A stretch of DNA of 21,526 bases from a virus. The stretch covers positions 1 through 21,526 of the IMG/VR virus record IMGVR_UViG_3300021081_000023; one strand, written 5' to 3'. Under the pieces are notes generated by a model, which saw nothing but the letters and a program-made list of their open reading frames with translations, searched no databases and had not been told where the DNA came from. Of this stretch, positions 3,578 through 20,055 are shown piece after piece (position 1 is the first letter of the stretch; the number at the start of each line of letters is the position of its first letter). The position numbers were made by a program, and so were the translations under genes.

Positions 3578-3602
3578 CTGTTTCGTCCTCTCTTTCTTTC
3601 CC

Positions 3603-4607: not shown

Positions 4608-4631
4608 ATCTGTTCTCCTCTTGGTAAAAAC

Positions 4632-4644
4632 TTTAGACTCTAAA
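4632..4644. promoter_or_regulatory. Operator candidate A, upstream of the FkbM gene
   Basis: Core TTTAGACTCTAAA, a perfect 13-base palindrome about a central C. It fills the short gap between the TPR-glycosyltransferase stop and the FkbM start, 24 bases before the ATG at 4607 and just before the SD. It is flanked by A and T runs. Confidence 0.75.
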
Positions 4645-4651
4645 CTTTTCC

Positions 4652-6799
4652 CTAATCGGCGTCCATTATCGACCGGCGGAGGGCTTCCGCCGATCTGGGA
4701 GTGTCCGGGGAGTCCGGGTTATCCCGGTCGCCGTCAGCCTCCCTGATCGTGTAGTCCAGTAGACCCCTCACATGGGCCTGGGCGGCCCTGTAGGCGGCCT
4801 GGAAGGCCACGGCCATGGAATAGGACTGATAGTCCGGTTCGGTCGCCTCCGGACCGCTGGGGAAGGGGCTGAAGTCGCATTGTACGGGCGCGGCAAAGGT
4901 GGGATTGGGTGGATTCTGCCGGTAGATCCTGGTCGTGGGGTCCGGCTGGGTGGACCAGACCGGGCATCTTTCCGTTGGCCCATCCACACAGTCCGGAAGG
5001 TTGTTGAGGTCCAGTTGGCCGTGCCAGGGGGGCATACCCCAGCGGGCGTCCGGGCAGTAGGGCAGGACAATCCATACGGGGATACCCAGGAGGCGGCACA
5101 GGTGGGCCACCACCGTATCAACCGTCACCACGGCGTCCATGCCGGTCAGGAACACGGCCAGATCGTGGGTGGAGCCGATATGGGGAGTCAGGTCCTGGAC
5201 TCCCAGCGGCATCCGGATCTGGCCTGGGTAGTAGGCCCGCTGGACCGAGAACAGGCGCATGGGTGGATCACAACCCAGGTGCGGACTCAGTTTGGTGACG
5301 ATACCGGCCACAAGGTCATCCCGTACGGATCTGGCCCAGTCGCCTGGGTGGGCTGGAGACCCGTGCCAGCAAAGGCCCACGTTGGCTACTCCGTCGTAGC
5401 GGCGGACCGGGCAGCCGGACTCGTCCAGGTCCAGAGCCTTTTCCAGCTCAAAAGTCAGATCGCTTAGAGGGGTGGTTACAGACAGGTCGATATCCTGATC
5501 CGGCCAATCCGGCCTGTTCAGGAGTGCGGGGATGTCCATGTGGCCAATCCACAAGCGGTCCGAGTCGAACTGGTCCATGGCTTCGGCTGGGCTCTGAATG
5601 GCGACGGCGCTGGCCAGCGTGGCGTGAGATATCACGGTATGGATCAATTTGGCGTTGGCTACCGGACAGACGATCTTGATGAGCCACTGGCCGAATACCT
5701 TGCCGTCGCTCCACATCCGTCCATCGGTTGAGTTGCGGGCCTTGACGACGGTCCGGATGAACTGGACCAGTTTGGGGAGCGCCTGTATCTGGTCGCCAAG
5801 TCCCTGTTCCATGTAAATCCCGACTGGCCCGGTCAGTCTCTCCATGCTTACCAGACCGGGGTCCGTCAGCCGTCCGGAGTTTCTGTTACAGGCCACCGTG
5901 TAATCGTTCACCGGGTAATTGAGCCAACGTCTGAAGTTGGGGAACTCCGATATCTGCCCGTGAATCAGGTGGAGTCCGTCGATCATGGACTGGGCTAGAA
6001 CCGTCATGCCGGTCCTGGTAGCGGCGTCCTGGTCGCCCCATTCGATGGAATACGGTTTTGGTCTGGTCTCCCCGTCTTTCCAGTCTTTCCGGTCTTTCCG
6101 GTCCTGTACCGAGATTCTGACCGATTCCCGGTCCACCGAATCGGGGCCTCCCTCTTTGGCCATGCGGTAACACTCGTGGTAGGCGGCTAGTGCCTGCCGG
6201 TAGTATCCACCGTTTTCCGGGGTACCCCAGGCGGCATCCATACGGGCCAGCACGGACCCCAATTGGAACCACATGACGGCCCGTTTGGGCCAGAGTGCAA
6301 TCGCCCAGCGGCTGTAGGTCTGGGCCAGTTGCAAAGCCCCGGCCTTCATGTGGCATACGCTCATGTTGTGGAAGCAGACTGCCCGCTCCCTGGTGTGGTA
6401 CTTGGCCGGGTCCGGCTCCCGCCTGTCCAACCCTTCGTACAGCTCCAGGGCGCGGCCACAGGCTTCCCGGCAGGCCTTGAACCATGTGGCGTCCATCTGG
6501 GCCAACAGGCTCCCCAGATTGATCCACGCTTCTGGACTTCCCCCACCCTCACGCCGGGCGCAATCGGCCAACAGGATCATAGCCGTTTCCTTCATCGGCA
6601 CGGGCAAGGCCATCAGTTGAATAGCGGCGGCCAACTGGTGATCGTGAATCAGCGTGGGGTGGTTGAACACGTTGGCCAGACGCCCGTAGGTATGGCGCTC
6701 CCATTCCTCCGCCGTCCTGGGACCTTGCGTCCGGCCAGCCGACTTTTTCCCAATACCGGCTACCTCATCAATATAATCGGCGTCGAATTCATCGCTCAT
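4652..6799 (-). CDS. TPR-repeat protein with glycosyltransferase-like (GT-B/heptosyltransferase-type) C-terminal domain
   Basis: A 715-residue two-part protein. Residues about 70-225 are TPR-like helical pairs (AWINLGSLLAQMDATWFKACREACGRALELYEG; AVCFHNMSVCHMKAGALQLAQTYSRWAIALWP; AVMWFQLGSVLARMD...ALAAYHECYRMA). A charged linker with three (R/W)KD repeats follows, then a glycosyltransferase-like half: MEQGLGDQIQALPKL (about 330-344), VGLCWHGSP, and HDLAVFLTGMDAVVTVDTVVAHLCRLLGIPVWIVLP (about 545-580), ending DARW, where bacterial TPR-glycosyltransferases usually have DWRW. These motifs resemble the sugar-nucleotide binding half of family 9-like enzymes. ATG at 6799 has GGAG 9 bases upstream; TTG at 6814 is an alternative. 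Probably works with the adjacent FkbM enzyme. Function by family, target unknown. Confidence 0.85.
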   Translation of the reverse strand: MSDEFDADYIDEVAGIGKKSAGRTQGPRTAEEWERHTYGRLANVFNHPTLIHDHQLAAAIQLMALPVPMKETAMILLADCARREGGGSPEAWINLGSLLAQMDATWFKACREACGRALELYEGLDRREPDPAKYHTRERAVCFHNMSVCHMKAGALQLAQTYSRWAIALWPKRAVMWFQLGSVLARMDAAWGTPENGGYYRQALAAYHECYRMAKEGGPDSVDRESVRISVQDRKDRKDWKDGETRPKPYSIEWGDQDAATRTGMTVLAQSMIDGLHLIHGQISEFPNFRRWLNYPVNDYTVACNRNSGRLTDPGLVSMERLTGPVGIYMEQGLGDQIQALPKLVQFIRTVVKARNSTDGRMWSDGKVFGQWLIKIVCPVANAKLIHTVISHATLASAVAIQSPAEAMDQFDSDRLWIGHMDIPALLNRPDWPDQDIDLSVTTPLSDLTFELEKALDLDESGCPVRRYDGVANVGLCWHGSPAHPGDWARSVRDDLVAGIVTKLSPHLGCDPPMRLFSVQRAYYPGQIRMPLGVQDLTPHIGSTHDLAVFLTGMDAVVTVDTVVAHLCRLLGIPVWIVLPYCPDARWGMPPWHGQLDLNNLPDCVDGPTERCPVWSTQPDPTTRIYRQNPPNPTFAAPVQCDFSPFPSGPEATEPDYQSYSMAVAFQAAYRAAQAHVRGLLDYTIREADGDRDNPDSPDTPRSAEALRRSIMDAD

Positions 6800-6819
6800 T
6801 TTGTGGTTCTCCAATCCAT

Positions 6820-7443
6820 TTATTCCGTATGTTCGGGCGTTTCGTTGTTATGGTCTTCAGCCTTGCCATGTACTTCGGCCTTGGCCTCATCCTTGTAGCG
6901 GAGCATCTGAGCCCAGTTGCTATCCAGCTCTCCCTGGGTGAACTCAAAGCCGTATACCGCATATTCGGGCCGGGCGTTGGCAAATCCCCGCTGGTAGTCG
7001 CCATTGACCCAGAACACATGGAGCCAAGCCTCACGGACTCCCAGGGCGTGGCAGTAGTTTTTCATCTGGGCCATCCAATACCATTCCTTGGACCAGTTCT
7101 CCGATCTCCGTTTGGACTTCCAGGTCAGCTTGAATTCATGCAACCGGCCCCCAGTAGCATCTAGCGTCAGTCCGTCCGGGGTCATGACTATCCCGTCCTG
7201 TTCGATCTCCCCAAAGTGGTACATCATGCCCGGTATCCTGGTGCTGAGCCATTCCTCCCAGGCCAGACCCAGGCTCATCCTCAGGACGGCTACCTCGTCC
7301 GGCCCCTCCTCGTCATCGTCGATCTTCAGGAATCCGGCCCTGACGGCGATGTACTTGACGATCCCGCTGGCGTGAACTCCGGAGGACCGGCCATGGCCAT
7401 CGTCCATCTGAACGTGGTTCTGTTCGACTATCCATTGGCGCAT
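6820..7443 (-). CDS. PD-(D/E)XK nuclease (YqaJ/RecB/Cas4-like)
   Basis: A 207-residue predicted exonuclease-type protein. The active site can be read as GLAWEEWL (Glu63/64), MTPDGLTLD (Asp90) and HEFKLTW (Glu103-x-Lys105), the TPDG...E-x-K arrangement typical of YqaJ-like and RecB-like phage nucleases. WYWMAQMKNYCHALGVREAWLHVFWVNGDY follows, matching the helix and strand that carry the conserved Gln/Tyr motif (QMKNYCHALG). ATG at 7443 has AAGGGG 8 bases upstream. It is followed closely by the TPR-glycosyltransferase gene. With the RecA-like ATPase and helicase it would supply end resection for recombination; that role is inferred. Confidence 0.85.
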   Translation of the reverse strand: MRQWIVEQNHVQMDDGHGRSSGVHASGIVKYIAVRAGFLKIDDDEEGPDEVAVLRMSLGLAWEEWLSTRIPGMMYHFGEIEQDGIVMTPDGLTLDATGGRLHEFKLTWKSKRRSENWSKEWYWMAQMKNYCHALGVREAWLHVFWVNGDYQRGFANARPEYAVYGFEFTQGELDSNWAQMLRYKDEAKAEVHGKAEDHNNETPEHTE

Positions 7444-7505
7444 GATCCGGTCCCCTTTCGTTCACTCATCCGATTGGCCTATTGCCGTCTACCATCTCCA
7501 TTCCC

Positions 7506-8372
7506 CTACTGGGGCATGGACACGTCGGCCCCGTCCACCACAAACCCGTTTCCGGCCAGCCAAGCGGCATTGATCACGCCACTGATGGCGTTTTTGGTTT
7601 TGGTGTCCAGGCTCTTGTCCTTGTTCAACTCGCGGAATGAAAAGACCTTCAACTGATTGATGGGAGTCGTTCCCTTTTCCAGCAGTCCGGTCACCACTCC
7701 GATAGCGATGTTGTTCATGTCATCGTCTCCGGCCGGAGCCTCCGCCTGGGCCTCCTCAGCCGCCGCCGCCGTGGCCGTAGCCGTGGTGGCAGCCGCCGCC
7801 ACCGAATTGGTCTTGGCCGCCGCCCCCGTGGGTTTGGCCGCCGTCGCCGCCGCCGTCGCCGTCCGTTTGGCTCCGGCTCCCTTCTTGTCCCAGGGCAGAC
7901 TGATCACTTTGTCCACCACCAGGATCTGGGCTTCCCGGCCCTCTTTTTTCTGGACCGTGAACGCGCCGTCCCGCTTGGGGGCCGGTTTCCGGACCACGTG
8001 GAACTTGGAGCCCTCCAGGATGCTGATATCGTCCTTAAGCGGCGTCAGGTCCCCCCCGGAGTCCGTGATGGACCGGATGAAGTGGTACCAGTTGGACGAC
8101 TGGGTCAGATGCTCTTTCCCGTTCGGGCTGATCAGCGTCTTTCCGTCATCGTCCGGATTGGGTTGGAAGTTGTCCAGGCTACCGGCGCTGAGGAATTCCT
8201 CATGCTCGTCGGAGCCATCCAACGGCTCCATGGTGATCCGGCAAGCCAGTACCGGGGGATTGACCGTACCCTGGTAGTCCCACTCCGTCCAACGCAGGTT
8301 GGTTAGGGTGACATCCACATCCTGCATGAGCCCGCCCCTGATATAGGTGTCGGGGTGCAACATGATTCCCAT
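7506..8372 (-). CDS. Candidate single-strand DNA-binding/recombination accessory protein with Ala-rich linker
   Basis: A 288-residue protein in three parts. Residues 1-165 look like a beta-rich domain (DVDVTLTNLRWTEWDYQG, ACRITMEPLDG, SILEGSKFHVVRKPAPKRDG, REAQILVVDKVISLPW). Residues about 168-225 are a low-complexity Ala/Thr/Lys linker ending in an acidic patch (EEAQAEAPAGDDD). Residues about 226-288 form a compact helical domain (IAIGVVTGLLEKGTTPINQLKVFSFRELNKD...NAISGVINAAWLAGNGF). ATG at 8372 has AGGAG 8 bases upstream. No family was recognised by motif. A DNA-binding domain, linker and C-terminal module, next to a helicase and nuclease, resembles how phage ssDNA-binding proteins are built, but that function is only a suggestion. 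Confidence 0.6.
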   Translation of the reverse strand: MGIMLHPDTYIRGGLMQDVDVTLTNLRWTEWDYQGTVNPPVLACRITMEPLDGSDEHEEFLSAGSLDNFQPNPDDDGKTLISPNGKEHLTQSSNWYHFIRSITDSGGDLTPLKDDISILEGSKFHVVRKPAPKRDGAFTVQKKEGREAQILVVDKVISLPWDKKGAGAKRTATAAATAAKPTGAAAKTNSVAAAATTATATAAAAEEAQAEAPAGDDDMNNIAIGVVTGLLEKGTTPINQLKVFSFRELNKDKSLDTKTKNAISGVINAAWLAGNGFVVDGADVSMPQ

Positions 8373-8437
8373 GTTTTTTTCTCCTGTTTTGTCTTTCCCG
8401 GCCCCCCCTCTGGGAGGCCGTCTGTCTGCCCCAGGAA

Positions 8438-8456
8438 AAGTTTAGAGTCTAAACTT
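8438..8456. promoter_or_regulatory. Operator candidate B, between helicase and Ala-linker protein genes
   Basis: AAGTTTAGAGTCTAAACTT is a perfect 19-base palindrome about a central G. It lies in the 173-base gap after the helicase stop, about 65 bases before the ATG at 8372. No clear sigma70 promoter was found next to it. Confidence 0.78.
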
Positions 8457-8545
8457 CCCATTACTTTTGCCATCCGGGGTCATTATCGTCAATGGGTTAC
8501 GGACCAAGTGGCAGGGGCGGTCCGGCCCAAAAGAGCCAAAGAAGA

Positions 8546-10186
8546 CTAATGGTTTATGAGGTCTATCAGGTCCAGGGCCTTGGGAGCCTGGGGGACCTCC
8601 ACCATATGCCTGACCAGACCGCGCCACCAGTTGGGGTAGTGGCCGGGGAACCGTTTGAGGGCCGCCTGGACCGAATCGTCGATGACGAAGTTTTCACACT
8701 GGTCGTCGTCGGCACGGGTACCGCGTCCGGTGGATTGGACCAGGGTCATGGCCATTTCGTAGCTGAGATAGGAGCCGTCCTTATCCATGCGGGCCTTCAT
8801 CACGGCGGATTTGAGATCGGGGAATGGGGCTTTGCAGATGATCTGAAATTCACATTCGGTGTAGGGGAAGTCATAGCCGGTGGAGACTGACGGGGTGACC
8901 AGGACCACGGGCTCCCGGCTGGACTTGAATTCCTCCACTGTACGCATGGCCGATCCGGGCCGGTTGTCGTTGAGGATCATGGTATGGCTATGGCGGGAAG
9001 AGGCCCGGATACGCTTGGCACGGTCGAAAGAGACGGTATGAATGATGCCTTTGCGGTCCCGGCGGCCGTCCAGGATTTCGTCGATCCGTTCCACCAGCAT
9101 CCAATAATCGGCTTCGTCGGATTTGTAGTTCAGCTTGACGGTTGGGATGAAGTGGACCGGGGAGCGCGAGGGTGGGAAAAATGAGTCGTAGTCGTAGAAG
9201 CGGGAGGAGTCTGGAGGGCAGCCCAGCATCTGGAGAGTCTTGGGCATCATGGTGGCTGAAATGAGACGGATATTGGGGATGCCCTGGAACAGGATCTCTT
9301 CGGCGTATTCCTTGGCCCAGACAAGCTGAATCCTGAAGCCGTCCTCACGGCCATGGACGGCGTCCACAACCCACTGGCCACGTAGCTTGATCAGGATCTC
9401 CAGTTTGGACACAAGGCGCTTGTAGCTTTTAAGGCGATCCATGGCGGACGGTCCGCCGTCCAGGCCCATGAGCATCTTGGTGGCCAGCTCGGTGGCCAGT
9501 TGCTGGACCTTGCCGATGTTGGCCTGGGCAAACGCGGTCCACTCTTTGGGATTGAGCGGCCAGCGTGGCCAGTCGGTTTGCAGGACCCGGATCACGTCAT
9601 AGGCCGTCATATAGACGTTGACGGCGTCACAAATGAAGCCGGGGGCGTCGTGGGCTTCATCCAGGACCAGCAGATCGAATTCGCCCAGGCCGTCCCCGTA
9701 TTGGTTGATGGCGCACCAGTAGGCGTAGTTGGTGACCACCAGTTGGGAATCCATCGCCGTGTAGTACTGCTCACGGTAGGGACAGTCCGTTTCGTTGCGG
9801 CGTTTTTTCGACTCGTGACAGCCCATGTGTGGTCCGTCCTCACACGTCCGGGGCCGGTCGTGCGGGGCCTCTATACAATCGAAGTTTCCACGGCCCTTGA
9901 CGGCGACCAGACCACAATGTCCGAAGTCGGCCAGTAGCTGGTCCTGGAGTCCCTTGGTGGCGGTCAGGATACAGGTCCGGCAACCCCGCATCATGGCCTC
10001 ACCCATGTAGACCAGACTTTTACCGGAGCCGGTGGGCATGGCATGGGCCACGAATCGACGGTTTGAATCCAGACCGGCGCTGATAGCTTCCGTCTGGCCC
10101 GGCCGCCATGCCTTGAACTTGGGTGGCAGGCCCAGGTCATGGGGCGACAGACCGGACAGGGCCGGGTTGACGCTGGTGGCTTTCAT
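8546..10186 (-). CDS. XPD/DinG-like superfamily 2 DNA helicase with Fe-S cluster cysteines
   Basis: A 546-residue ATP-dependent helicase. Motifs in order: Q-like AWRPGQTEAI (26-35), Walker A MPTGSGKS (50-57), motif Ia LTATKGLQDQL, four cysteines (104, 115, 123, 135) in the position of the XPD/DinG 4Fe-4S domain, VTNYAYW (151-157), DEAH box LVLDEAHD (173-180), motif III LISATM (308-313), TPSVSTGYDFP (431-441) and motif VI QSTGRGTR (484-491). It is shorter than E. coli DinG (over 700 residues) but holds all core motifs. ATG at 10186 has GGAG 8 bases upstream. An array of heptamer repeats lies between it and the upstream gene. Expected polarity is 5'-3', from the family. Confidence 0.92.
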   Translation of the reverse strand: MKATSVNPALSGLSPHDLGLPPKFKAWRPGQTEAISAGLDSNRRFVAHAMPTGSGKSLVYMGEAMMRGCRTCILTATKGLQDQLLADFGHCGLVAVKGRGNFDCIEAPHDRPRTCEDGPHMGCHESKKRRNETDCPYREQYYTAMDSQLVVTNYAYWCAINQYGDGLGEFDLLVLDEAHDAPGFICDAVNVYMTAYDVIRVLQTDWPRWPLNPKEWTAFAQANIGKVQQLATELATKMLMGLDGGPSAMDRLKSYKRLVSKLEILIKLRGQWVVDAVHGREDGFRIQLVWAKEYAEEILFQGIPNIRLISATMMPKTLQMLGCPPDSSRFYDYDSFFPPSRSPVHFIPTVKLNYKSDEADYWMLVERIDEILDGRRDRKGIIHTVSFDRAKRIRASSRHSHTMILNDNRPGSAMRTVEEFKSSREPVVLVTPSVSTGYDFPYTECEFQIICKAPFPDLKSAVMKARMDKDGSYLSYEMAMTLVQSTGRGTRADDDQCENFVIDDSVQAALKRFPGHYPNWWRGLVRHMVEVPQAPKALDLIDLINH

Positions 10187-10212
10187 CTCTCACTCTCCAA
10201 TCCAATTCAATC

Positions 10213-10268
10213 GGGCAATGGGCAACGGGCAATAGGCAATAGGCAGTGGGCAACGGGCAACGGGCAAC
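10213..10268. repeat. Heptamer tandem repeat, eight copies of RGGCARY
   Basis: Eight consecutive 7-base units (GGGCAAT, GGGCAAC, GGGCAAT, AGGCAAT, AGGCAGT, then three GGGCAAC). They start one base after the end of the ribbon-helix-helix gene and run toward the helicase gene. They resemble short tandem heptamers known from cyanobacterial and some other genomes. Non-coding. Confidence 0.88.
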
Positions 10269-10877
10269 TCACTCCGTAGTCTGTTTGGGCAGTCCTGGCA
10301 GGGACGCGGGCGATGGCATCTCAACTACTTTGTTACCGTCCAGGACACGTTGGCTGGTAACCTTCCATTCGGCCATCCACTTCCGTTTCCAAACCGAATC
10401 CTTGACATTACTGATGGCGGCCCGGCACGAGTTCAGCACACGGGCCGCATCCTTGTGGTCTCCCCTGTCACGGTGGTCTATGGCGCGTTTGGCCATCAGG
10501 TCCAGGTGGTCCCGAATATTGACCATGATCTGATCGTCCCGTAACAGTTCGGTGTTGGCCTCCATGGCGCTGAGGATATGGCGGGGCATGGCGGGCTCCA
10601 GCTTGTGTAGCTTGAACAGCTCACAATAGACGGCGTGGACGATCAGGTCCTGGACGGTTCTGAAGGGGAATTTCTTACTGGCTACGATGAGGGCGATTTC
10701 TCTGGCCATATGGGGGCTCACGCGGATATCCAGGCGGCTAGAATGGCCATGTTCGTCCTGGGCCACCGACACCCACTCCTCGTTTGTGTACTTGGTATCC
10801 AGGTCCTCCGGCTCCTGGTGCATTTCCACCCAGGGCTTTTCGGTCCTGACTCTACCGGATTTCTCCGCCTTGGCCAT
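10269..10877 (-). CDS. Ribbon-helix-helix-like DNA-binding protein
   Basis: A 202-residue protein with a segment at about 47-86 (SRLDIRVSPHMAREIALIVASKKFPFRTVQDLIVHAVYCEL) that reads as beta strand, helix, turn, helix, as in ribbon-helix-helix regulators. The N-terminal 45 residues are polar (EKPWVEMHQEPEDLDTKYTNEEW). The C-terminal 110 residues are helical (NTELLRDDQIMVNIRDHLDLMAKRAIDHRDRGDHKDAARVLNSCRAAISNVKDSVWKRKWMAEW). ATG at 10877 has GGAGG 9 bases upstream. Second gene of the early operon, so a regulator or nucleoid-type protein acting on phage DNA is plausible. The call rests on pattern only. Confidence 0.62.
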   Translation of the reverse strand: MAKAEKSGRVRTEKPWVEMHQEPEDLDTKYTNEEWVSVAQDEHGHSSRLDIRVSPHMAREIALIVASKKFPFRTVQDLIVHAVYCELFKLHKLEPAMPRHILSAMEANTELLRDDQIMVNIRDHLDLMAKRAIDHRDRGDHKDAARVLNSCRAAISNVKDSVWKRKWMAEWKVTSQRVLDGNKVVEMPSPASLPGLPKQTTE

Positions 10878-10900
10878 GACACCAATCCTCCAGAGCGGGA

Positions 10901-11257
10901 TTAGCGGCCGTCTCTGGGCGGGAATGGGTTCATGATAGGCAAGTGGAGGGGTGACTCCAGACGGCGGAGGGCCTTTTCAACGTTGGCCTTTTGGGCCTCC
11001 ATTACCGCGATGTTGGAGTCAACCGCTAATTTCTGGGCTTTGGTGAACAGTTTGAGCCCGGAAGCCAGTAGATCCAATTTCTCAATCTCAGTCCAGTTCG
11101 AACCACCAGTGGCCGCTTTCTGGAATTGCTCCATTGCTTTGGCCAGCGTCTCACTATGTTCGTTGGCTACGGCCAGACTGGCCTCCACCTGTTTCTTGAT
11201 GGTGTACAGTTCGGCTTTCTGTTGTTCTGGGCTTGTGGGCATCATGGCAGGCATCAT
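10901..11257 (-). CDS. Hypothetical coiled-coil-like protein, first gene of the early operon
   Basis: A 118-residue, almost wholly helical protein (PEQQKAELYTIKKQVEASLAVANEHSETLAKAMEQFQKAA, then WTEIEKLDLLASGLKLFTKAQKLAVDSNIAVMEAQKANVEKALRRLE) with a Pro-rich tail (PLHLPIMNPFPPRDGR). No enzyme motif. It begins with a duplicated MMPAMMP, so the exact ATG (11257, 11254, 11245 or 11242) is unsure; 11257 is best placed for the GGGAGA upstream. It is the first gene after the control region, and a palindromic operator candidate lies 24 bases before the start. Role unknown. Confidence 0.75.
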   Translation of the reverse strand: MMPAMMPTSPEQQKAELYTIKKQVEASLAVANEHSETLAKAMEQFQKAATGGSNWTEIEKLDLLASGLKLFTKAQKLAVDSNIAVMEAQKANVEKALRRLESPLHLPIMNPFPPRDGR

Positions 11258-11281
11258 GGCAGTGGGTCTCCCGATCTGAAC

Positions 11282-11294
11282 TTTAGTATCTAAA
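11282..11294. promoter_or_regulatory. Operator candidate C, upstream of the early operon
   Basis: Core TTTAGTATCTAAA differs from the perfect palindrome at one base. It ends 24 bases before the ATG at 11257. Its reverse complement is identical to site D on the other side of the divergent promoters. Confidence 0.75.
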
Positions 11295-11373
11295 GCCTAG
11301 CCGGGGCATCGGTTAGGCGGCCTTGGCGGGCCTGAACAGGACTCTACCACCGGGCGCTCCGGCTTGACAATGG

Positions 11374-11402
11374 GGTATATGTTGGGGTTGACTGGCAGGC
11401 AA
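11374..11402 (-). promoter_or_regulatory. Weaker divergent promoter for the early operon
   Basis: On the minus strand, TTGCCT (11402-11397) and TATACC (11379-11374) with a 17-base spacer, 4 of 6 matches in each box. It overlaps the regulator promoter, so the two would compete. Its transcript would cross site C before reaching the gene at 11257. Confidence 0.45.
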
Positions 11403-11416
11403 CTCCAAGATATAGT
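11388..11416 (+). promoter_or_regulatory. Sigma70-like promoter of the regulator gene
   Basis: TTGACT at 11388-11393 and TATAGT at 11411-11416 with a 17-base spacer, a near-consensus promoter. Transcription should start near 11423, giving a leader of about 16 bases before the ATG at 11439. Confidence 0.7.
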
Positions 11417-11438
11417 GGTTACCGGGAGGCGGGGAGCC

Positions 11439-11780
11439 ATGGATGAGAAAAGTTTAGATACTAAAGTCCCCAAGACGGTCCCCAATACGGTCTCTAGGAC
11501 GGCCCCCAAGATGGCCACCAAGGTGGCCACCAAGACGGCCCTGGGGGAGCGGGTGGCCAAGGCCGGGGGTGTGGTCAAGATAGCCCAGGCGGCGGGCGTG
11601 AGCAAGGGGTATGTTACCCACATCTGCCAAGGCAACAGGAGCCCCAGCCTGGACGTTCTGGCGCGTCTGGCCGTGGCTCTGGGTGTCAACATGACGGTGG
11701 TGATAGGGGAGATCGGGACGGCCCGGAAGTCTGGGAACTGGTCTAGCGAACCACCCTCAGGCGGTACTCGCACAGGGTAG
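11439..11780 (+). CDS. Cro/CI-type helix-turn-helix regulator, candidate lysogeny repressor
   Basis: A 113-residue protein and the only convincing plus-strand gene. Residues about 36-90 are an HTH domain: LGERVAKAGGVVKIAQAAGVSKGYVTHICQGNRSPSLDVLARLAVALGV, with IAQAAGVSKGYVTHICQGNRSP as helix 2, turn, recognition helix. Before it is an unusual Thr/Lys-rich tail built from six four-residue units (KTVP NTVS RTAP KMAT KVAT KTAL). There is no C-terminal cleavage domain of the LexA/CI type. ATG at 11439 follows GGGAGG 9 bases upstream and a sigma70-like promoter (TTGACT, 17 bases, TATAGT). A palindrome overlaps codons 4-9, suggesting self-control. The frame extends back to 11364, but that start lies upstream of the promoter. 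It could equally be a Cro-like or activator protein. Confidence 0.82.
   Translation: MDEKSLDTKVPKTVPNTVSRTAPKMATKVATKTALGERVAKAGGVVKIAQAAGVSKGYVTHICQGNRSPSLDVLARLAVALGVNMTVVIGEIGTARKSGNWSSEPPSGGTRTG
11453..11465. promoter_or_regulatory. Operator candidate D, inside the start of the regulator gene
   Basis: Core TTTAGATACTAAA, the exact reverse complement of site C. It covers codons 5-9 of the regulator (Ser-Leu-Asp-Thr-Lys) and lies about 30 bases after the expected transcription start, a good place for self-repression by blocking transcription. Confidence 0.72.
11472..11543 (+). repeat. Imperfect 12-base tandem repeat in the regulator gene
   Basis: Six in-frame 12-base units close to AAGACGGYCCCC encode residues 12-35 of the regulator. 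The units have drifted but the period is clear. Confidence 0.7.
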
Positions 11781-11991
11781 CCCCTTTAGGACCGAGACCG
11801 GGCCGGACGCGCCGGACTGCCAGCTTGTCCTCCACCAGACCGTTGAGGGCCACGACGCATAGGAATTTGGCCATGTGGATATGAGAGGGCTTGAGTAGTT
11901 CACTCACCTGGGCCGGGGTGAACCACTCATCGGGCAGGGACCGGGCGGCGTCCCGAAGGAAGTTGAGGACCTGGGTCTCACGGTCGGTCAT
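11743..11991 (-). CDS. Small winged-helix protein, excisionase- or regulator-like
   Basis: An 82-residue protein reading as a compact winged helix: DRETQVLNFLRDAARSLPDEWFTPAQVSELLKPSHIHMAKFLCVVALNGLVEDKLAVRRVRPG...LCEYRLRVV. ATG at 11991 shares ATGA with the recombinase stop and has GGAGG directly upstream, so it is made with the recombinase. Its 3' end converges on the regulator gene and overlaps it by 38 bases. Directionality factors are often small winged-helix proteins encoded beside the integrase, so that role is possible but not shown. Confidence 0.72.
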   Translation of the reverse strand: MTDRETQVLNFLRDAARSLPDEWFTPAQVSELLKPSHIHMAKFLCVVALNGLVEDKLAVRRVRPGLGPKGATLCEYRLRVVR

Positions 11992-12611
11992 TGCCTCCGT
12001 CCTCCGTTGCGTTTCCCTTTCTTCCTGTCGGCTTTCCAGTTTACGTCCACCCTGGGTTCCTCACCGGGCTTTTCATAGGCCAGCTTTTCAGTCCTCTTCC
12101 TCATCGGGCTGGTGAAGGCCGTGTATTCCATCGTGCTCAGGATCGAACGGTGTCCAAGCCAGTTCTGGACCGCCAGCAACTCCGCCCCCTTTTCCAGCAG
12201 ATGGACGGCGATGGAATGGCGGAGGGTGTGGCAATGGCGTATGTCGGCGGGCCACGACGCCGGGGCATACCGCTTGATCAGGTTGTCCAGCATCCGGCGT
12301 CCGATGCCATGGCCGTGGCGGGAGGGAAACAGCGGGCCGGGCTGGGAGCCCCTGACCCTGACCCATGCCGATACCGCCTTGACTTCGTCCGGACCGGCGA
12401 AGTACTGGCCGGAGTTGGAGCCCTTGAGCCGTTTGATGAACAACTGGCCCGTGTCCGGCCTCCAGTCGTCAAGTTGGATCGTGGCCACTTCCGACGCCCT
12501 TAAGCCCCGCCAGTACATGACCGTGAAAAGGGCGTGGTCACGAGCTGAGGCGGCCTTGGTCCTCTCCAGGAGTTCTCCCACCTGTTCCTGGGTGGCGTAT
12601 TTGATAGGCAT
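11988..12611 (-). CDS. Tyrosine recombinase/integrase, catalytic domain only
   Basis: A 207-residue site-specific recombinase. All catalytic residues are present: Arg38 (RGLRASEV), Lys63 (RLKGS), His128 and Arg131 (CHTLRHS), His154 (WLGHRS) and the nucleophile Tyr163 (MEYT). The usual N-terminal core-binding (SAM-like) domain of phage integrases and XerC/D is missing, so the size resembles FimB/FimE invertases and solitary recombinases. The C-terminus is a basic tail (NWKADRKKGKRNGGRRQ) that may help hold DNA. ATG at 12611 has GAGAGGA 7 bases upstream. It is followed by a small winged-helix gene. No attachment site was found beside it. Integration, dimer resolution or DNA inversion are all possible. 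Confidence 0.88.
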   Translation of the reverse strand: MPIKYATQEQVGELLERTKAASARDHALFTVMYWRGLRASEVATIQLDDWRPDTGQLFIKRLKGSNSGQYFAGPDEVKAVSAWVRVRGSQPGPLFPSRHGHGIGRRMLDNLIKRYAPASWPADIRHCHTLRHSIAVHLLEKGAELLAVQNWLGHRSILSTMEYTAFTSPMRKRTEKLAYEKPGEEPRVDVNWKADRKKGKRNGGRRQ

Positions 12612-12629
12612 GATCCGGTCCTCTCCGTT

Positions 12630-12947
12630 CTAGTAACCTACAGCCGACATGACCGCTCCCGGCTCCGGCGTCTGGAGTAAAAACGTGATCGTGTTCCCAT
12701 CCCTGACATAGTCCAGGCCTTCCTTGTATCTGATCCCGTTCCAGAACACCATATACCAGACGGGGGCCTCTCCAGACGGTAATGAGACGGTGAAGACGTT
12801 CTGTTCAACCCCCCTGGTGATCGTCAGATCGGTCAACACTCTTCCGGCAGCCACAAATCCTCCTATAGCCTCCATGGCGGCTTTAACCATGGCCGCCACG
12901 TTGCTCATAGTGAGAATTCTGATCTCCCTTTGCCGCTTGTATCTCAT
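12630..12947 (-). CDS. Small beta-rich virion-like protein
   Basis: A 105-residue protein whose second half (FTVSLPSGEAPVWYMVFWNGIRYKEGLDYVRDGNTITFLLQTPEPGAVMSAVGY) has the pattern of a short beta-domain found in phage tail and fibre proteins: a 'xxNGxxxxxGxDYxxxGNTITFxxxPxxGxxxxxxY' module. The N-terminal part is helical (NVAAMVKAAMEAIGGFVAAGRV). Start may be ATG at 12947 (GGAGG 12 bases upstream) or ATG at 12908. It is odd to find such a gene between a zinc-ribbon gene and the recombinase, away from the virion operon. Confidence 0.65.
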   Translation of the reverse strand: MRYKRQREIRILTMSNVAAMVKAAMEAIGGFVAAGRVLTDLTITRGVEQNVFTVSLPSGEAPVWYMVFWNGIRYKEGLDYVRDGNTITFLLQTPEPGAVMSAVGY

Positions 12948-12956
12948 ACCCCCCGG

Positions 12957-13298
12957 TTACCTCCAATGCGGTTCGTACTGGGCATCGGCGTAGCGCGATT
13001 GAGGAAAGGCGGCCACCATAGCCCGGTCCGCTTCAAACAAATCGGCCTCGGTCAACGCCGGGTAGCGAAGGCGGTATTCCACCATCCGGAGAGCGGACGA
13101 TTTAGAGCCATGGCGGGCTATCTCCATACGCTCCCTGTGCAACGCCGTTTCCAGCCTGCCCAACTGCCTCAGCATGACCCGTACCAGCCCATCCATGACC
13201 TTACAGCGGGGACAGAGCCGGTACGGGCGTAGTTTCCGGAATGGGATAAGGTGGCAGCTACAACGCCTGGGCTGTCCGGATAGGTTCGGTCTGGGCAT
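12957..13298 (-). CDS. Small zinc-ribbon-like protein
   Basis: A 113-residue basic protein with CSC near the N-terminus and CPRC about 16 residues later, a possible four-cysteine zinc site. A helical region follows (VMDGLVRVMLRQLGRLETALHRERMEIARHGSKSSALRMVEYRLRYPALTEADLFEADRAMVAAF). Start is ATG at 13298; TTG at 13307 is an alternative, since GGAGGT sits just upstream. No family recognised. It lies between the dockerin gene and the small virion-like gene. Confidence 0.6.
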   Translation of the reverse strand: MPRPNLSGQPRRCSCHLIPFRKLRPYRLCPRCKVMDGLVRVMLRQLGRLETALHRERMEIARHGSKSSALRMVEYRLRYPALTEADLFEADRAMVAAFPQSRYADAQYEPHWR

Positions 13299-13334
13299 AC
13301 CATCCAATGACCTCCGGCCACCATTCTATTGTGG

Positions 13335-13382
13335 CCACCAGTCCGGCCACCAGTCCGGCCACCAGTCCGGCTACCAGCGTTC
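13335..13382. repeat. 12-base tandem repeat downstream of the dockerin gene
   Basis: Three exact copies of CCACCAGTCCGG and a partial fourth that runs into the 3' end of the dockerin gene. The adjacent GGCCAC/GTGGCC pair (13316-13336) could form a 6-base hairpin. It has no T-tract, so it is not called a terminator. Confidence 0.75.
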
Positions 13383-14117
13383 CAGCGGGGCCACCGGATT
13401 CACCCCCCTATTCAAAGCCTGCATTTCGGACCAGGACACCCCGTACTTGGCCCAGTCGATCTGCTTCATATTGTTCAGCGCAATCGGCGGGTTCATTGAA
13501 AAGATCACGATGAGAACGTCCAGGATCTTGCAATTGCCATCCCCGTTCTGGTCGCCGGTACAGGGGACCAGACCAAGCGCCTGATCAATGATCGACTGAA
13601 CATCGGCGGAGTCAATGTCTCCGTCCAGGTCAAGGTCCGCCTTGGCCGCTACCCGGAACGAGAACGCCGGGCCTGAGACGAGGGGGACCGCCAGCCCGAT
13701 ACTTCCACCGGCCTCCAGACCCGACAGCGGCAACTGGACCAGACCGGCCGCAGTTCCGGCTGGTACGGGGATGGTGTAGACCGCTACCGGCCCGTTGGCG
13801 ATGGCGTTCTGATTCGCCCCGGCTATCAGGCATTTCGATTTGTCGGCTGTGCAGTAGAGGGTCTTGGCCGCCGCCGTCCCGGCCGTGCCAATAACGGCCG
13901 TGGCCGTGTAGCCAGTGGGGATGCCAATGGTCCACTGGATTCCGGCCACTGGGTTAGCCACCGTCGATGTCAGCCCCAGGGTGGCCGTCACGGTCTGTCC
14001 CGGTCTCACGATTGGAGTGCCGGTTACGGTCAATACAGATTGCGCCGCCAGCAGAGCCGGTAAGGCGAGAGCCAACAGCGAAAGGCGGATAGTCGTTCCG
14101 GTAGTCGTTCTGGTCAT
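13371..14117 (-). CDS. Secreted protein with cohesin-like domain and dockerin-type calcium-binding repeats
   Basis: A 248-residue predicted exported protein. Residues 1-25 are a signal peptide (basic start, IRLSLLALALPALLA core, AQ cleavage site). Residues about 27-156 look like a beta-sandwich of the cohesin type: PIVRPGQTVTATLGLTSTV, AGIQWTIGIPTGYTATAV, GPVAVYTIPVPAGTAAGLVQLPLSG, PAFSFRV. Residues 161-210 hold two EF-hand-like loops as in dockerins: DLDLDGDIDSAD (161-172) and DQNGDGNCKILD (189-200), each followed by a hydrophobic helix. A short tail follows (NNMKQIDWAKYG...). ATG at 14117 has AGAGGA about 9 bases upstream and shares ATGA with the upstream stop. It would act outside the cytoplasm, perhaps by protein-protein or glycan attachment. 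Domain calls are by pattern; the dockerin part is clearer than the cohesin part. Confidence 0.78.
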   Translation of the reverse strand: MTRTTTGTTIRLSLLALALPALLAAQSVLTVTGTPIVRPGQTVTATLGLTSTVANPVAGIQWTIGIPTGYTATAVIGTAGTAAAKTLYCTADKSKCLIAGANQNAIANGPVAVYTIPVPAGTAAGLVQLPLSGLEAGGSIGLAVPLVSGPAFSFRVAAKADLDLDGDIDSADVQSIIDQALGLVPCTGDQNGDGNCKILDVLIVIFSMNPPIALNNMKQIDWAKYGVSWSEMQALNRGVNPVAPLERW

Positions 14118-14395
14118 GGTAATGTTTCCTCTTCTTTCATCAGGTCCTCACTGGTCAAGGCCCTGTACTGATACCGATGATACCCCTCGGGAGTGTACAG
14201 GCCCCATTCCGTCTTCTTTCTCCGTCTCCGCTCCACCAGGAGCGAATCCAATAGGCGGTCCAGCAGATAACCCGTCCTGGACAGGCTCAGGGGAGGGGAG
14301 AACTGGTCCGCCACATGCTGGGCCATCCACCACTCCGGCCTGCCCCTCAAGGTCTCCAGGACCGCCTCCGTTTGTCTCCTGTCAAGATCGGTCAT
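14114..14395 (-). CDS. Small winged-helix-like protein
   Basis: A 93-residue protein with helix DLDRRQTEAVLETLRG, segment PEWWMAQHVADQF, recognition-helix candidate SLSRTGYLLDRLLDSLLVERR and a wing (RRKKTEWGLYTPEGYHRYQYRAL). This is the plan of the other small winged-helix proteins here, but with little direct sequence match. Start ATG at 14395 shares ATGA with the stop of the upstream gene; GTG at 14404 is an alternative. It lies just before the secreted dockerin gene and could be its regulator, which is only inference. Confidence 0.7.
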   Translation of the reverse strand: MTDLDRRQTEAVLETLRGRPEWWMAQHVADQFSPPLSLSRTGYLLDRLLDSLLVERRRRKKTEWGLYTPEGYHRYQYRALTSEDLMKEEETLP

Positions 14396-15234
14396 CGGAA
14401 CCACTCCAGCAGAGCCCGGATCAACTGGCCCGCTTTGAGCCGTTCCTTGGCATGTTCGGCAAGGGCATTCCTTACCAATTCAGGGACCTTGGAGACCAGC
14501 ACGTCCTCCACCACTCCACCATCGTCCTGGGTCCTGGCTTCCACCCCAAACAGCCCGCCGATCTCCACGACCAGACCAAGGCAATAGTCCCTGTTGTCGG
14601 ACATCTCTTTGGCCGTCTCCCTCCAGGAGTCCAGTTCCCTCAACGCCTGGGAAAGTTTAGACTCTAAACTTTCCGGCTTGTGGCCGATGTGTCCGGCCTG
14701 GGCTGGGGGGCTCCATTTCCGGTCTTTGGTTCCGGTCGTCTCCGATTCGCTCCGGAAACTGAAATAGGGAATCAGTCCCCAATTCTCCGGCTTCAGTTTG
14801 TTGTAGACGATTCTCATGATAGCCCCGGTGGAGTCGTTCGCGTTCAGCTTGGCAACTTCATCTGTCAGGACAATCCGGAAGTAGATCGCCCGGTCTCCCA
14901 TAGAGTCCACACCCAAGTTCCAGAGGACGCGGACCACGACGTTAGAGTGGCTGAACGCTTCGATGGTATGGCTCACCGCTTCATTCAAATCGTGGGGCGT
15001 CTCTCTCTCTTCTGGAGCCTGGGTAGGAGATGGGGTAGGGGCCGATCCTGGGTGGCCTTCGGCTTGGTCGAAAATGAACAGGCGGACCGGCTTGAGGATT
15101 GGGTAGGGGAGTACCAGCCTGATGCATTTGTCCGTCATCGCGTTATTGAACATCATGGCCAGTTCGCCAGTGGAGATCAGGGCCACCGTCTCCCCGTCCT
15201 GAATCATGGCCGTCCACTCGGATTGGTATTTCAC
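14392..15234 (-). CDS. Conserved-looking hypothetical protein, second gene of an overlapping pair
   Basis: A 280-residue protein with no named family that I can assign. Residues about 85-165 look like a conserved alpha/beta domain: AVSHTIEAFSHSNVVVRVLWNLGVDSMGDRAIYFRIVLTDEV...IMRIVYNKLKPENWGLIPYFSFRSESE. The C-terminal 110 residues are helical, partly coiled-coil-like (SLESKLSQALRELDSWRETAKEMSDNRD). I prefer GTG at 15234: it has GGAGGGAG 8 bases upstream and shares GTGA with the preceding stop; ATG at 15252 has a poorly spaced SD. A perfect palindrome of the operator family lies inside the gene at 14651-14673, encoding ESLESKLS. The preceding small gene is probably its partner. Confidence 0.72.
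   Translation of the reverse strand: MKYQSEWTAMIQDGETVALISTGELAMMFNNAMTDKCIRLVLPYPILKPVRLFIFDQAEGHPGSAPTPSPTQAPEERETPHDLNEAVSHTIEAFSHSNVVVRVLWNLGVDSMGDRAIYFRIVLTDEVAKLNANDSTGAIMRIVYNKLKPENWGLIPYFSFRSESETTGTKDRKWSPPAQAGHIGHKPESLESKLSQALRELDSWRETAKEMSDNRDYCLGLVVEIGGLFGVEARTQDDGGVVEDVLVSKVPELVRNALAEHAKERLKAGQLIRALLEWFR
14651..14673. promoter_or_regulatory. Operator candidate E, 23-base perfect palindrome inside a coding region
   Basis: The longest copy: core TTTAGACTCTAAA at 14656-14668, with symmetry extending five bases further on each side (GAAAG on the left, CTTTC on the right). It lies within the gene at 14392-15234 and encodes ESLESKLS in frame, so it is not a simple promoter site. Confidence 0.72.
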
Positions 15235-15593
15235 CGGACTAGCTCCCTCCATGACTCCACCAGGGAAGGCGCTTTCCCCTCAAGCCAATCCACGGCGTCC
15301 CTGATAGCGTCCTGGATATTGTCCGGATCTCCGTCGAAGTGGTTGAGTGCCTCATCCTCGCTCATTCTCCCGATCAGGACCTTGATCTGGGCGTCGATGG
15401 CGTTATGGTGGTTGTCCCCAAACGCGGAGGTACGCCGGACCCTGGGATTGATCTCCACCAGCGCCTTGATCTGGGCTTCGATGGCGGACTCATCCGGCCG
15501 GACCGGGGGGGCTGGCTTGGCCGTTTTGGTCTTCGCCTTGGTCTTGGGCTTGGCCGCTTTCTTGGCTGGCCGCCCTTTGGTGTCACGTTTCAT
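15231..15593 (-). CDS. Small basic-tailed protein, first gene of an overlapping pair
   Basis: A 120-residue protein with a Lys/Ala/Pro-rich tail (residues 1-32, KGRPAKKAAKPKTKAKTKT...), like histone H1-type tails. The compact domain after it contains SAFGDNHHNAIDAQIKVLIGRMSEDEALNHF and NIQDAIRDAVDWLEGKAPSLVESWREL. AIEAQIKALVEINPRV and AIDAQIKVLIGRMSED form an internal repeat. ATG at 15593 has GGAG 9 bases upstream. Its stop overlaps the next start. I recall this domain pattern from small uncharacterised bacterial proteins but cannot name a family. Function unknown. Confidence 0.74.
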   Translation of the reverse strand: MKRDTKGRPAKKAAKPKTKAKTKTAKPAPPVRPDESAIEAQIKALVEINPRVRRTSAFGDNHHNAIDAQIKVLIGRMSEDEALNHFDGDPDNIQDAIRDAVDWLEGKAPSLVESWRELVR

Positions 15594-15611
15594 TCGTTGG
15601 GTCTCCTTTTC

Positions 15612-16355
15612 TCATCTAGTTCTGAATCCTTCCTCGCACTGGGCCTTATATAGCTTTCGGGACAGGTTGGTCTTGTCCGGACCGTCCGGCGCGGCCCATC
15701 CACGGTAAAACGCATTTCTCCCAATCTGGGCGTATTCCACCAGACCGTCCATTATCAGATCCAGGACCAGGACCTCATCCACAGGACCCAACATGGCGTT
15801 GACCGTGTCCCACTCCAGCCACCCCATACGCCACTCGGGGCTATAGCCGGGGTACATGGCGGAGAACTCTAGGAGGGTATCCAGGATGCTCTTGTGGATT
15901 CCAGTAACCGTCCTGGCGACGACGTGTCCCAGATAGACGTACTCCCAGGGCTCCCCAGGATCTAGCTCAGGGTCCCTCCCCCGGCGTAAAATGTGGTGCC
16001 ATCCACGTGAAGGCATCCTCAGGTCGGAAATTCTGGAGGACACTCCGCCACCACTGGCGGGCTGGCCGATATGGACCGCGATCTCCTGTATCGTTGCCAC
16101 CATTCCGTTAATGGCCAAGGCACGATAGGTCAGGTCCAGTTGGCTCCGGAAGGCTTCCCGGTCGTGGCCCGGTTCATAGGTCCCCCCGAAGAATCGAATA
16201 TCCCCCTTGAGCCATGGAAGCTCATCGTCCGGAATCAGGTCCGTGGTGAGTCCACCGTACAGAGTCCCGTCCTGAGCGCCGGAGAGGATCTGTTGGGATA
16301 CCACCATCATGTCCCATTTTTTGGCTGGTGGGATGACCTCAACTTTGTGCCTCAT
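15612..16355 (-). CDS. Hypothetical protein with two winged-helix-like segments, first gene of the accessory operon
   Basis: A 247-residue protein. Residues about 70-140 (RSQLDLTYRALAINGMVATIQEIAVHIGQPASGGGVSSRISDLRMPSRGWHHILRRGRD...WEYVYL) read as a winged helix, with VSSRISDLR as recognition helix. A second, less clear helical DNA-binding-like segment covers about 155-225 (ILDTLLEFSAMYPG...WLEWDTVNAMLGPVDEVLVLDLIMDGLVEYAQIGRNAFYRGW). ATG at 16355 is preferred, with AGGA 9 bases upstream; TTG at 16364 is also open. It follows a good promoter at 16412-16440 by a leader of about 50 bases, so it may regulate the accessory operon. No family recognised. Confidence 0.7.
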   Translation of the reverse strand: MRHKVEVIPPAKKWDMMVVSQQILSGAQDGTLYGGLTTDLIPDDELPWLKGDIRFFGGTYEPGHDREAFRSQLDLTYRALAINGMVATIQEIAVHIGQPASGGGVSSRISDLRMPSRGWHHILRRGRDPELDPGEPWEYVYLGHVVARTVTGIHKSILDTLLEFSAMYPGYSPEWRMGWLEWDTVNAMLGPVDEVLVLDLIMDGLVEYAQIGRNAFYRGWAAPDGPDKTNLSRKLYKAQCEEGFRTR

Positions 16356-18381: not shown

Positions 18382-20055
18382 CTAGTACAGTTCCCGCCAG
18401 ACCAGCCATGCGCTCCATTGGACGTTACCGGACAGCGACTGGACGAAAATACAGACGTTGTCGGCAGTGGCTCCGTCCGCGCTGATCGTGATGGGGAATT
18501 TGTTGACTATCTGGACGGACACCGGAACGCGGTTGGCGTTGGCCGGTCCGGACGAAATGGATTGATAGGCGATTGTTCCCAGAGTGCCGAAAGTCGTACT
18601 CAGGACGGTCCCGGCCACGCTCTGGCCATCGGTCTCCGTGATGCTCCCGGTCTGGACGGCCACAAACGTTCCACCGGCCGGAGTGGAGTAGTAGGCCAGT
18701 CCCCAGTACAGATTGGCCCCCACCGTGATCCCGGCGTCTTCGATCACGATCTGGCCCCGGTTGGGCTTGGTGTTGAAAAGCAGTCTTGGCCGGATGCACA
18801 GGGCTGGCCTGAGAGTGGTCCCCGTGGTGGCTATGGTCGTACCGGCGTTGGAGGCGGAAAACACATAGCCCCGGTCGTTCTCAAAGCCGTCTTCGCTGGT
18901 GACCGTGGCACAGATCAACTGCATTTCCGTCCCCACGGTGGAGGCCGCCGTATTGACGTTCTCCGCCCGCACGGGCAGGTTAGCCGAGGCCATGTAGACG
19001 TTGTTCTGATTGTTGGCGTTGAAAATCTGGTGGCAGTAGTAGATCCGGCCATTCACGTCCAGACCGTAACGGATGCGGCCGACTCCCAGCCACTGGTAGT
19101 CGATAATGAATATCTGCGTCCTGGTGGTGTTCAGCGTGACCCCGCTTGGCCCGGTCCCGTCGAAGCGGTCCAGGTTCCAATCGGCCTGCCCGATTCTGGT
19201 AGTCGTCAGGACTCCGGCCACGGTGGAGCGGAGATTGACGGCCGCCCCGTTCTGGTCCACGGAAAAAAATAAACCGTTGGCGTCGTCGAACTGGCCGATG
19301 CGGCGGGAATTGTTGTCCCCGGCCGTACCCAGTACTCCGGTAACGATGACCAGTTGCCCCTTGCCGGGCTGGTACCTGATGTACTGCCTGGACTGGACCA
19401 CGGCGCGGCTGGCATTGGCTCCGGTCGTGGCCAGCTTGGTGGCCGATATGTTGGCCGTGTAGGTGGCCGTTCCGCTGTTGGCCGTTATGGTGGTCCACAG
19501 GAACGGGCTCAAGCTGTACTCCTGTTGGCTGTCGAACAGGGTGACCCCGTTGGAAGTCCTGAGACGGGAAAAGGCGTCCAGGTTGGCCCCGTCCCCGATG
19601 AAGGCCGTGACGGGCAATCCACTCCCGGCTCCCGGTCTGATTTTCCAGCCGATCAGATTGCCCTTGACCACCGACGCCAGAGCGGCCGTATAGCTCACCC
19701 TGATCCATGGCTGGAGTCCGAACACCTGTATCTGGTCCGATGTGTCCGTGTCGAACGTATGCGGGTTGTCCCCAGATACGACCGGGAACGTGGCGAACAC
19801 ACCTGGAGCCCCGGCGCTGGTAGGGGCGTACTCCAGGACCAGCACGGACCCGGTGGCGCTCCCCGAATCCACGTTGGTATTGAGGACCCAGTAGGTACAG
19901 CCCACTTGCCGGTTGTCGAACACGGCGCTATGGGCTACCGTGCCGGATAGCGTGAATGCCACGTTGCAATCGGGGAATTGCTGGTAGGCGGGAGGATTCT
20001 GTCCCCATATGAATCCGGAGGCCACCAGCGTCCAGAACAGGATTCTTTTCCTCAT
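18382..20055 (-). CDS. Large phage virion protein with a signal-peptide-like N-terminus
   Basis: A 557-residue beta-rich structural protein. It contains a stretch I recognise from phage particle proteins: DAFSRLRTSNGVTLFDSQQEYSLSP, VVQSRQYIRYQPGKGQLVIVTGVLG, RRIGQFDDANGLFFSVDQNG, IFIIDYQWLGVGRIRYGLDVNGRIYYCHQIFNANN. Before it are about 135 residues of other beta-rich sequence. The N-terminus MRKRILFWTLVASGFIWGQ has the charge, hydrophobic core and end of a signal peptide, which is unusual for a virion protein. Start ATG at 20055 shares ATGA with the upstream stop and has GGAGG 6 bases upstream; the frame reaching 20379 is only a shadow of the upstream gene. Exact place in the particle unknown. 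Confidence 0.82.
   Translation of the reverse strand: MRKRILFWTLVASGFIWGQNPPAYQQFPDCNVAFTLSGTVAHSAVFDNRQVGCTYWVLNTNVDSGSATGSVLVLEYAPTSAGAPGVFATFPVVSGDNPHTFDTDTSDQIQVFGLQPWIRVSYTAALASVVKGNLIGWKIRPGAGSGLPVTAFIGDGANLDAFSRLRTSNGVTLFDSQQEYSLSPFLWTTITANSGTATYTANISATKLATTGANASRAVVQSRQYIRYQPGKGQLVIVTGVLGTAGDNNSRRIGQFDDANGLFFSVDQNGAAVNLRSTVAGVLTTTRIGQADWNLDRFDGTGPSGVTLNTTRTQIFIIDYQWLGVGRIRYGLDVNGRIYYCHQIFNANNQNNVYMASANLPVRAENVNTAASTVGTEMQLICATVTSEDGFENDRGYVFSASNAGTTIATTGTTLRPALCIRPRLLFNTKPNRGQIVIEDAGITVGANLYWGLAYYSTPAGGTFVAVQTGSITETDGQSVAGTVLSTTFGTLGTIAYQSISSGPANANRVPVSVQIVNKFPITISADGATADNVCIFVQSLSGNVQWSAWLVWRELY

Follow-up and report, generated by a model that had tools for sequence, protein, structure and literature searches.

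Why would a phage carry a gene for a small, apparently exported protein in which a cohesin-like domain is joined to a dockerin? Few known non-covalent protein couplings are as strong as that between cohesin and dockerin, which has been studied mainly in cellulosomes. Both domains also occur outside cellulosomes in numerous bacteria and archaea (PMC9012536), and a count of cohesin, dockerin and S-layer genes has been published for Acidobacteria (PMC5900883); a literature word search, with most subscription journals outside its scope, returned no paper on phage-encoded cohesin-dockerin proteins. The reading we favor, to which we give a rough probability of 45%, is that the gene product is an exported, calcium-dependent docking adaptor, taken from acidobacterial secreted proteins, that alters the surface of infected or lysogenic cells. 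The analyses below directly support the domain architecture and homology of the protein, the fold class of its first half, its recurrence across several phage loci and the existence of possible partners within the host order.

The stretch of DNA analyzed (the window), 21,526 bases long, is a complete IMG/VR virus record. By gene content it is a phage with a gene set typical of a temperate one; its host is probably a soil member of the Acidobacteriota. Genes of note include the following:

11364–11780, plus strand: helix-turn-helix (Cro/CI-type) repressor-like gene (PF01381; PHROGs repressors)
11988–12611, minus strand: tyrosine recombinase (integrase), downstream of the cohesin-dockerin gene (PF00589, 5e-26; phrog_216)
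18382–20055, minus strand: virion structural protein (phrog_1645, 1e-72) with a signal-peptide-like start (MRKRILFWTLVASGFIWGQ; hydropathy 2.06) and the Shine-Dalgarno sequence GAGGAGG

Other neighbors on the same strand as the cohesin-dockerin gene encode holin-like membrane proteins, recognized by inspection, and a protein with weak similarity to phage families of the tape-measure/lysozyme type; further genes encode a DEAD/Helicase_C helicase, a Sak4-like protein and an ERCC4 nuclease. A GGCAATG-type array of 7/14/28-nt repeats (10208–10268) lies upstream of the helicase gene, and an FkbM-type methyltransferase gene and its neighbor, whose 720-aa product weakly matches TPR (both within 3603–6814, minus strand), may serve glycan modification.

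The gene under study and its parts are the following:

13371–14117, minus strand: whole gene for the predicted exported cohesin-like plus dockerin protein, 248 aa (open reading frame; homologs of 45–47% identity in other phage loci)
14114–14404, minus strand: upstream gene for 96 aa, whose stop overlaps the cohesin-dockerin start codon (ATGA; from the open reading frames)
14043–14117, minus strand: Sec-type signal peptide, residues 1–25, with putative cleavage between ...LLAA and Q (hydropathy 2.53; homologs)
13647–14039, minus strand: cohesin-like beta-sandwich, residues ~27–157, with conserved Cys89 and Cys96 (profile 3e-20; PF00963 in homologs; PDB cohesins by profile and fold)
13602–13637, minus strand: dockerin calcium loop 1, D161–D172 (DLDLDGDIDSAD; loop pattern, shuffles)
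13518–13553, minus strand: dockerin calcium loop 2, D189–D200 (DQNGDGNCKILD; loop pattern; Pfam Dockerin_1 at residues 188–217)
13374–13484, minus strand: C-terminal extension of ~37 residues, absent from relatives (alignments)

The 248-residue frame proposed in the first-pass annotation was borne out and assigned to the minus strand, where 248 codons plus a stop are read from 14117 to 13371; the plus-strand frame over the same positions is interrupted by stops. A good Shine-Dalgarno-like site (AAGAGGA) lies ~9 nt upstream of the ATG, and from the ATGA overlap, translational coupling to the upstream 96-aa gene is likely. A consensus scan of the sequence immediately upstream returned no promoter-like site; the gene appears to depend on coupling to its neighbors and not on a promoter of its own. 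A 12-nt unit (CCGGACTGGTGG, minus strand) is repeated in tandem almost four times, in near-perfect copies, across and directly after the stop codon (13333–13377). Host contamination of the window was considered and rejected on the basis of the same-strand coupling, the flanking phage genes and the homologs in other phages; the phage context originally proposed is supported.

The N-terminus (MTRTTTGTTIRLSLLALALPALLAAQ) has the features of a Sec-type signal peptide as judged by hydropathy and inspection, with a 9-residue hydropathy peak of 2.53 and a host-style A-Q end that is common to the homologs from three other phage loci (L226, L235 and L191, described below); the N-terminus of a fourth homolog, L225, is signal-like as well, so that all five phage copies have signal-peptide-like N-termini. 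These features agree with the export signal predicted initially.

The identity of the first half was settled through its homologs. Direct searches with the window protein gave no match to the Pfam cohesin family (PF00963), and this is the one point in favor of an unrelated Ig-like sandwich that happens to stand beside an EF-hand motif. That interpretation is very remote, since it is contradicted by three sets of results. First, a profile built from eight homologous domains of acidobacterial origin, with the query left out, matched the window protein at 67 bits (3e-20), compared with a best score of 6.6 bits on 500 shuffles. Second, homologs pass the PF00963 cut-off over the aligned region (L152, 48 bits; L159, 57 bits; L154, 30 bits); L152, which aligns with residues 2–211 of the window protein at 33% identity (5e-15), also exceeds the Dockerin_1 cut-off at the aligned place, with 33 bits. 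Third, cohesins of known structure were recovered both by profile and by fold: the family profile (nine rows, the query being one of them) retrieved PDB cohesins at up to 3e-11, including 5n5p, 2vn5 and 1g1k among others, and an AlphaFold model built from the window protein together with relatives from viral contigs (pLDDT ~70 over mature residues 1–100, low confidence in the dockerin half) gave cohesins or cohesin complexes as its first fourteen Foldseek matches in the PDB. The top matches were 5lxv, 4iu3, 4iu2, 2zf9, 8ajy and 2jh2 (E values of 3e-4 to 1e-3, probability 1.00), with modest TM-scores (0.34–0.40, relative to query length) that are explained in part by the poor second half of the model; a model from the single sequence was unusable (pLDDT 40). 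Thus, structure prediction of residues 27–156, which had been set beforehand as a possible refutation of the cohesin-like sandwich, returned cohesins as the best PDB matches rather than an unrelated fold, and the first half of the protein is confirmed as cohesin-like. A search of BFVD gave no convincing match; one weak match there is labeled 'Dockerin type 1' (Myoviridae sp. ctCL221), showing that dockerin-named viral proteins are present in databases.

In the second half, both of the calcium loops noticed at the outset fit the pattern D-x-[DN]-x-D-G-x5-D, that is, the full ligand set of EF-hand type, and D161, D165 and D172 of loop 1 are invariant in the alignment of 8 homologs. Chance EF-like motifs were ruled out, given that 200,000 shuffles of its sequence yielded none with two loops (mean of 0.0004 loops per shuffle). 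The Pfam dockerin profile (PF00404) matches residues 188–217 at 22.5 bits, 0.4 bit short of the cut-off of 22.9, which is passed by the phage homologs L225 (25.7 bits) and L226 (23.3 bits). Cys186 and Cys196, around loop 2, are conserved in the phage clade; together with Cys89 and Cys96, they are invariant in the window, L226 and L225 proteins, and L235 has two matching pairs. Such paired conserved cysteines are as expected for a protein in an oxidizing compartment.

Used as the sole query, the window protein recovered no relatives among viral contigs, phages, plasmids or genome contigs, and the other window proteins recovered none among viral contigs. The two best matches among the acidobacterial genomes described below, L226 and L225, both belong to genome G691, which has the acidobacterial 16S signature with one mismatch; they share 45 and 46% identity with the window protein along the full length and lie in phage surroundings. 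In L226, a 36-kb contig that is possibly a free phage binned with G691, one strand encodes a small-terminase-like open reading frame, the large terminase (31.6% to that of Pseudomonas phage JBD24), the portal (phrog_12), a 305-aa open reading frame and the cohesin-dockerin protein, again with an ATGA overlap, followed on the 3' side by a protease-like open reading frame, a major capsid type (phrog_1623), a head-tail adaptor (phrog_442) and a neck protein (phrog_5). The order in L225 is a collagen-tailed tail protein, a fiber protein, the cohesin-dockerin protein, another exported protein, small lysis-like genes and SspA/SspH defense genes; the SspA/DndA and SspH-like genes (phosphorothioation defense; 12472–15974, minus strand) adjoin the provirus with the cohesin-dockerin gene. 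A scan of viral contigs in which L225 and L226 also served as queries added L235, a 65-kb contig whose protein is 47% identical to the mature window protein, and L236, which is 99.9% identical to L235 over the shared 20.6 kb. In L235, which also encodes Erf-like and RecE-like recombination proteins, the cohesin-dockerin gene follows genes for fiber and other exported proteins. The viral contig L191 (IMGVR_UViG_3300039412_001047) has a more distant copy (28–30% identity) that has lost the second calcium loop and kept the architecture. Close to this copy lie a gene for a 383-aa Cas12f-like protein (3289–4440, plus strand; PADLOC 9e-11) and, after it, a CRISPR-like array (4560–5540; ~13 copies of ~36-nt repeats at 72-nt spacing). 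In L228, a small cohesin-dockerin protein is encoded near a recombinase-like gene, directly after a matchless 289-aa open reading frame, possibly in a mobile element (3835–7607, plus strand).

These neighborhoods bear on whether the protein works on the cell or on the particle. As a virion-associated adhesin, that is, a particle decoration or fiber accessory, it would bind host surface proteins at adsorption through its dockerin or its cohesin, and exported fibers may be assembled onto particles at or after lysis. The gene is placed accordingly within the head operon in L226, directly after fiber genes in L225 and after genes for fiber and exported proteins in L235, and neighboring structural or fiber-like proteins in the window, L225 and L235 share signal-peptide-like starts. 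Conversely, a Sec signal would take the protein away from the cytoplasmic site of assembly, the protein has no match in PHROGs, and its neighbors are different in every phage (a head operon, a fiber cluster, or a region between lysis-type genes and integrase), as for cargo. We consider the adhesin doubtful, yet it stays the main rival, because the differing neighborhoods all imply transcription with phage genes; the head and tail gene clusters of L226, L225 and L235 and the ATGA coupling suit late expression, and with it a role in the virion, no less than surface modification. The signal-peptide-like starts on structural, fiber-like or beta-helix-like proteins (window, 18382–20055, minus strand; L225, from 6317, plus strand; L235, 4886–6880, 6886–7953 and 7937–9979, plus strand), of which MRRLIYLMLVWAMPATAQ and MKFIAGLLLITSLGWG are further examples, are notable; virion proteins are not expected to be exported.

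To place the family in cellular genomes, acidobacterial genomes were reached through a 16S signature pattern, the phylum being that of the genome with L063 (a Candidatus Sulfopaludibacter record). The first acidobacterial order searched gave no matches at 1e-3; across the phylum sample of 396 genomes, 35 gave matches at E≤0.05, seven of these with values below 1e-4, and in one order the family profile matched at 1e-8 in 73 of 257 genomes. Among six genomes of that order checked for the partner domains anticipated in the first-pass annotation, the cohesin part of the expectation held throughout (PF00963 in all six) and the dockerin part in three (PF00404), with no match in the others. No Pfam-detectable dockerin was found in G691, G655 and G338, which have cohesin-like proteins, in a search that also misses the dockerins of this family. 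Potential partners are thus present in the host order, and cohesin-dockerin pairing may occur there. Tandem clusters of genes for secreted cohesin-like and dockerin proteins were seen in the acidobacterial genomes with L152 (~5900–11781, minus strand) and L153 (5317–10363, minus strand).

In a tree built from 20 cohesin-dockerin pairs, all full-length, the window, L235, L226 (entered as row L196) and L225 proteins form one supported clade (96/94), and L191 is placed elsewhere among chromosomal proteins with weak support. Because L191 falls outside this clade, there may have been two or more acquisitions of such genes by phages. The abundance of chromosomal relatives would also suit a passenger, a host secreted-protein gene captured by phages and without phage function. 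We regard this as improbable, given that the phage copies form a supported clade in which the signal peptide, both loops and four cysteines were kept despite divergence to 45%, and that the frame is intact and coupled to phage genes. Alternatively, the dockerin of one copy might bind the cohesin of the next to build extracellular polymers. The two halves do occur side by side in each of the five phage copies, as they do in small relatives on chromosomes; nevertheless, such self-assembly is unlikely, considering that the halves could equally close on themselves within a one-to-one chain, that L191 has the same architecture without the second calcium loop, and that separate partners are available in the host order, many of them cohesins and some dockerins.

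In the docking-adaptor reading, phages would have drawn the gene from similarly built secreted proteins of Acidobacteriota and would carry it as recurrent accessory cargo. The signal peptide would be cleaved, and the cohesin-like sandwich and the EF-like pair of dockerin loops would fold outside the cytoplasm, held by two predicted disulfides (Cys89-Cys96 and Cys186-Cys196). Most likely, the dockerin half would then plug into abundant host proteins, secreted or at the cell surface, through their cohesin-like domains, leaving the phage-supplied cohesin-like face exposed, or the reverse. The altered surface of the infected or lysogenic cell could result in receptor masking, adhesion or exoprotein capture. 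We infer export, calcium binding, the disulfides, the binding target and the benefit to the phage from the features described above.

Comparison with known systems places the protein between several classes. It shares the predicted beta-sandwich with cohesins (PF00963), including cohesin-like 2jh2 and the type III cohesins 4iu2 and 2zf9, and its homologs pass the Pfam cut-off, but it is itself below Pfam detection and is a small phage protein with a single cohesin and an extra conserved Cys pair. As in type I dockerins (PF00404), the calcium loops are duplicated with a complete ligand set, whereas the score just under the cut-off and the Cys pair around loop 2 set it apart. Cellulosome adaptor scaffoldins likewise combine one dockerin and cohesin in a single secreted chain; in contrast, the window protein is phage-encoded, outside any cellulosome locus, and, instead of the several cohesins plus a carbohydrate-binding or anchoring module that define a scaffoldin, has one cohesin and, by Pfam, no such module or enzyme module. 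Domain order and signal peptide are those of acidobacterial secreted cohesin(-dockerin) proteins (L152, 867 aa; L157, 215 aa; L227, 206 aa), which differ in their setting (chromosomal for L227, near cytochrome and efflux genes, and apparently so for the others) and in often being much larger. Finally, it resembles phage morons or lysogenic conversion genes as a predicted accessory exported protein with a variable neighborhood in phages with integrase and repressor, and the L226 and L225 copies lie beside portal, terminase, capsid and tail genes, as in integrated prophages, save that L226 is possibly a free phage; it differs from morons in the ATGA coupling to its neighbor and in that the consensus scan gave no promoter-like site upstream. 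The lysogenic conversion suggested initially is plausible with respect to the integrase, the repressor and the homologs beside phage structural genes in a bacterial assembly, although the gene looks tied to its neighbors.

The new part is the recurrence: phages seem to use cohesin-dockerin coupling repeatedly, perhaps re-dressing the surface of the infected cell. A broader proposal, which we consider quite unlikely, is that phages of Acidobacteriota export receptor-binding and surface proteins (fibers, the beta-helix-like protein, cohesin-dockerin) through Sec and couple them extracellularly, via cohesin-dockerin, to host surface proteins or released particles; if true, phage accessory parts would be assembled outside the cell by a plug-and-socket borrowed from the host. 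The finding also draws attention to a puzzling trait of these phages, the signal-peptide-like starts on fiber-like proteins. If phages of soil Acidobacteriota recurrently carry an exported version of this coupling, they would be tapping the extracellular docking system of their hosts, and this version offers a testable route to the role of the many cohesin and dockerin proteins in non-cellulolytic bacteria.
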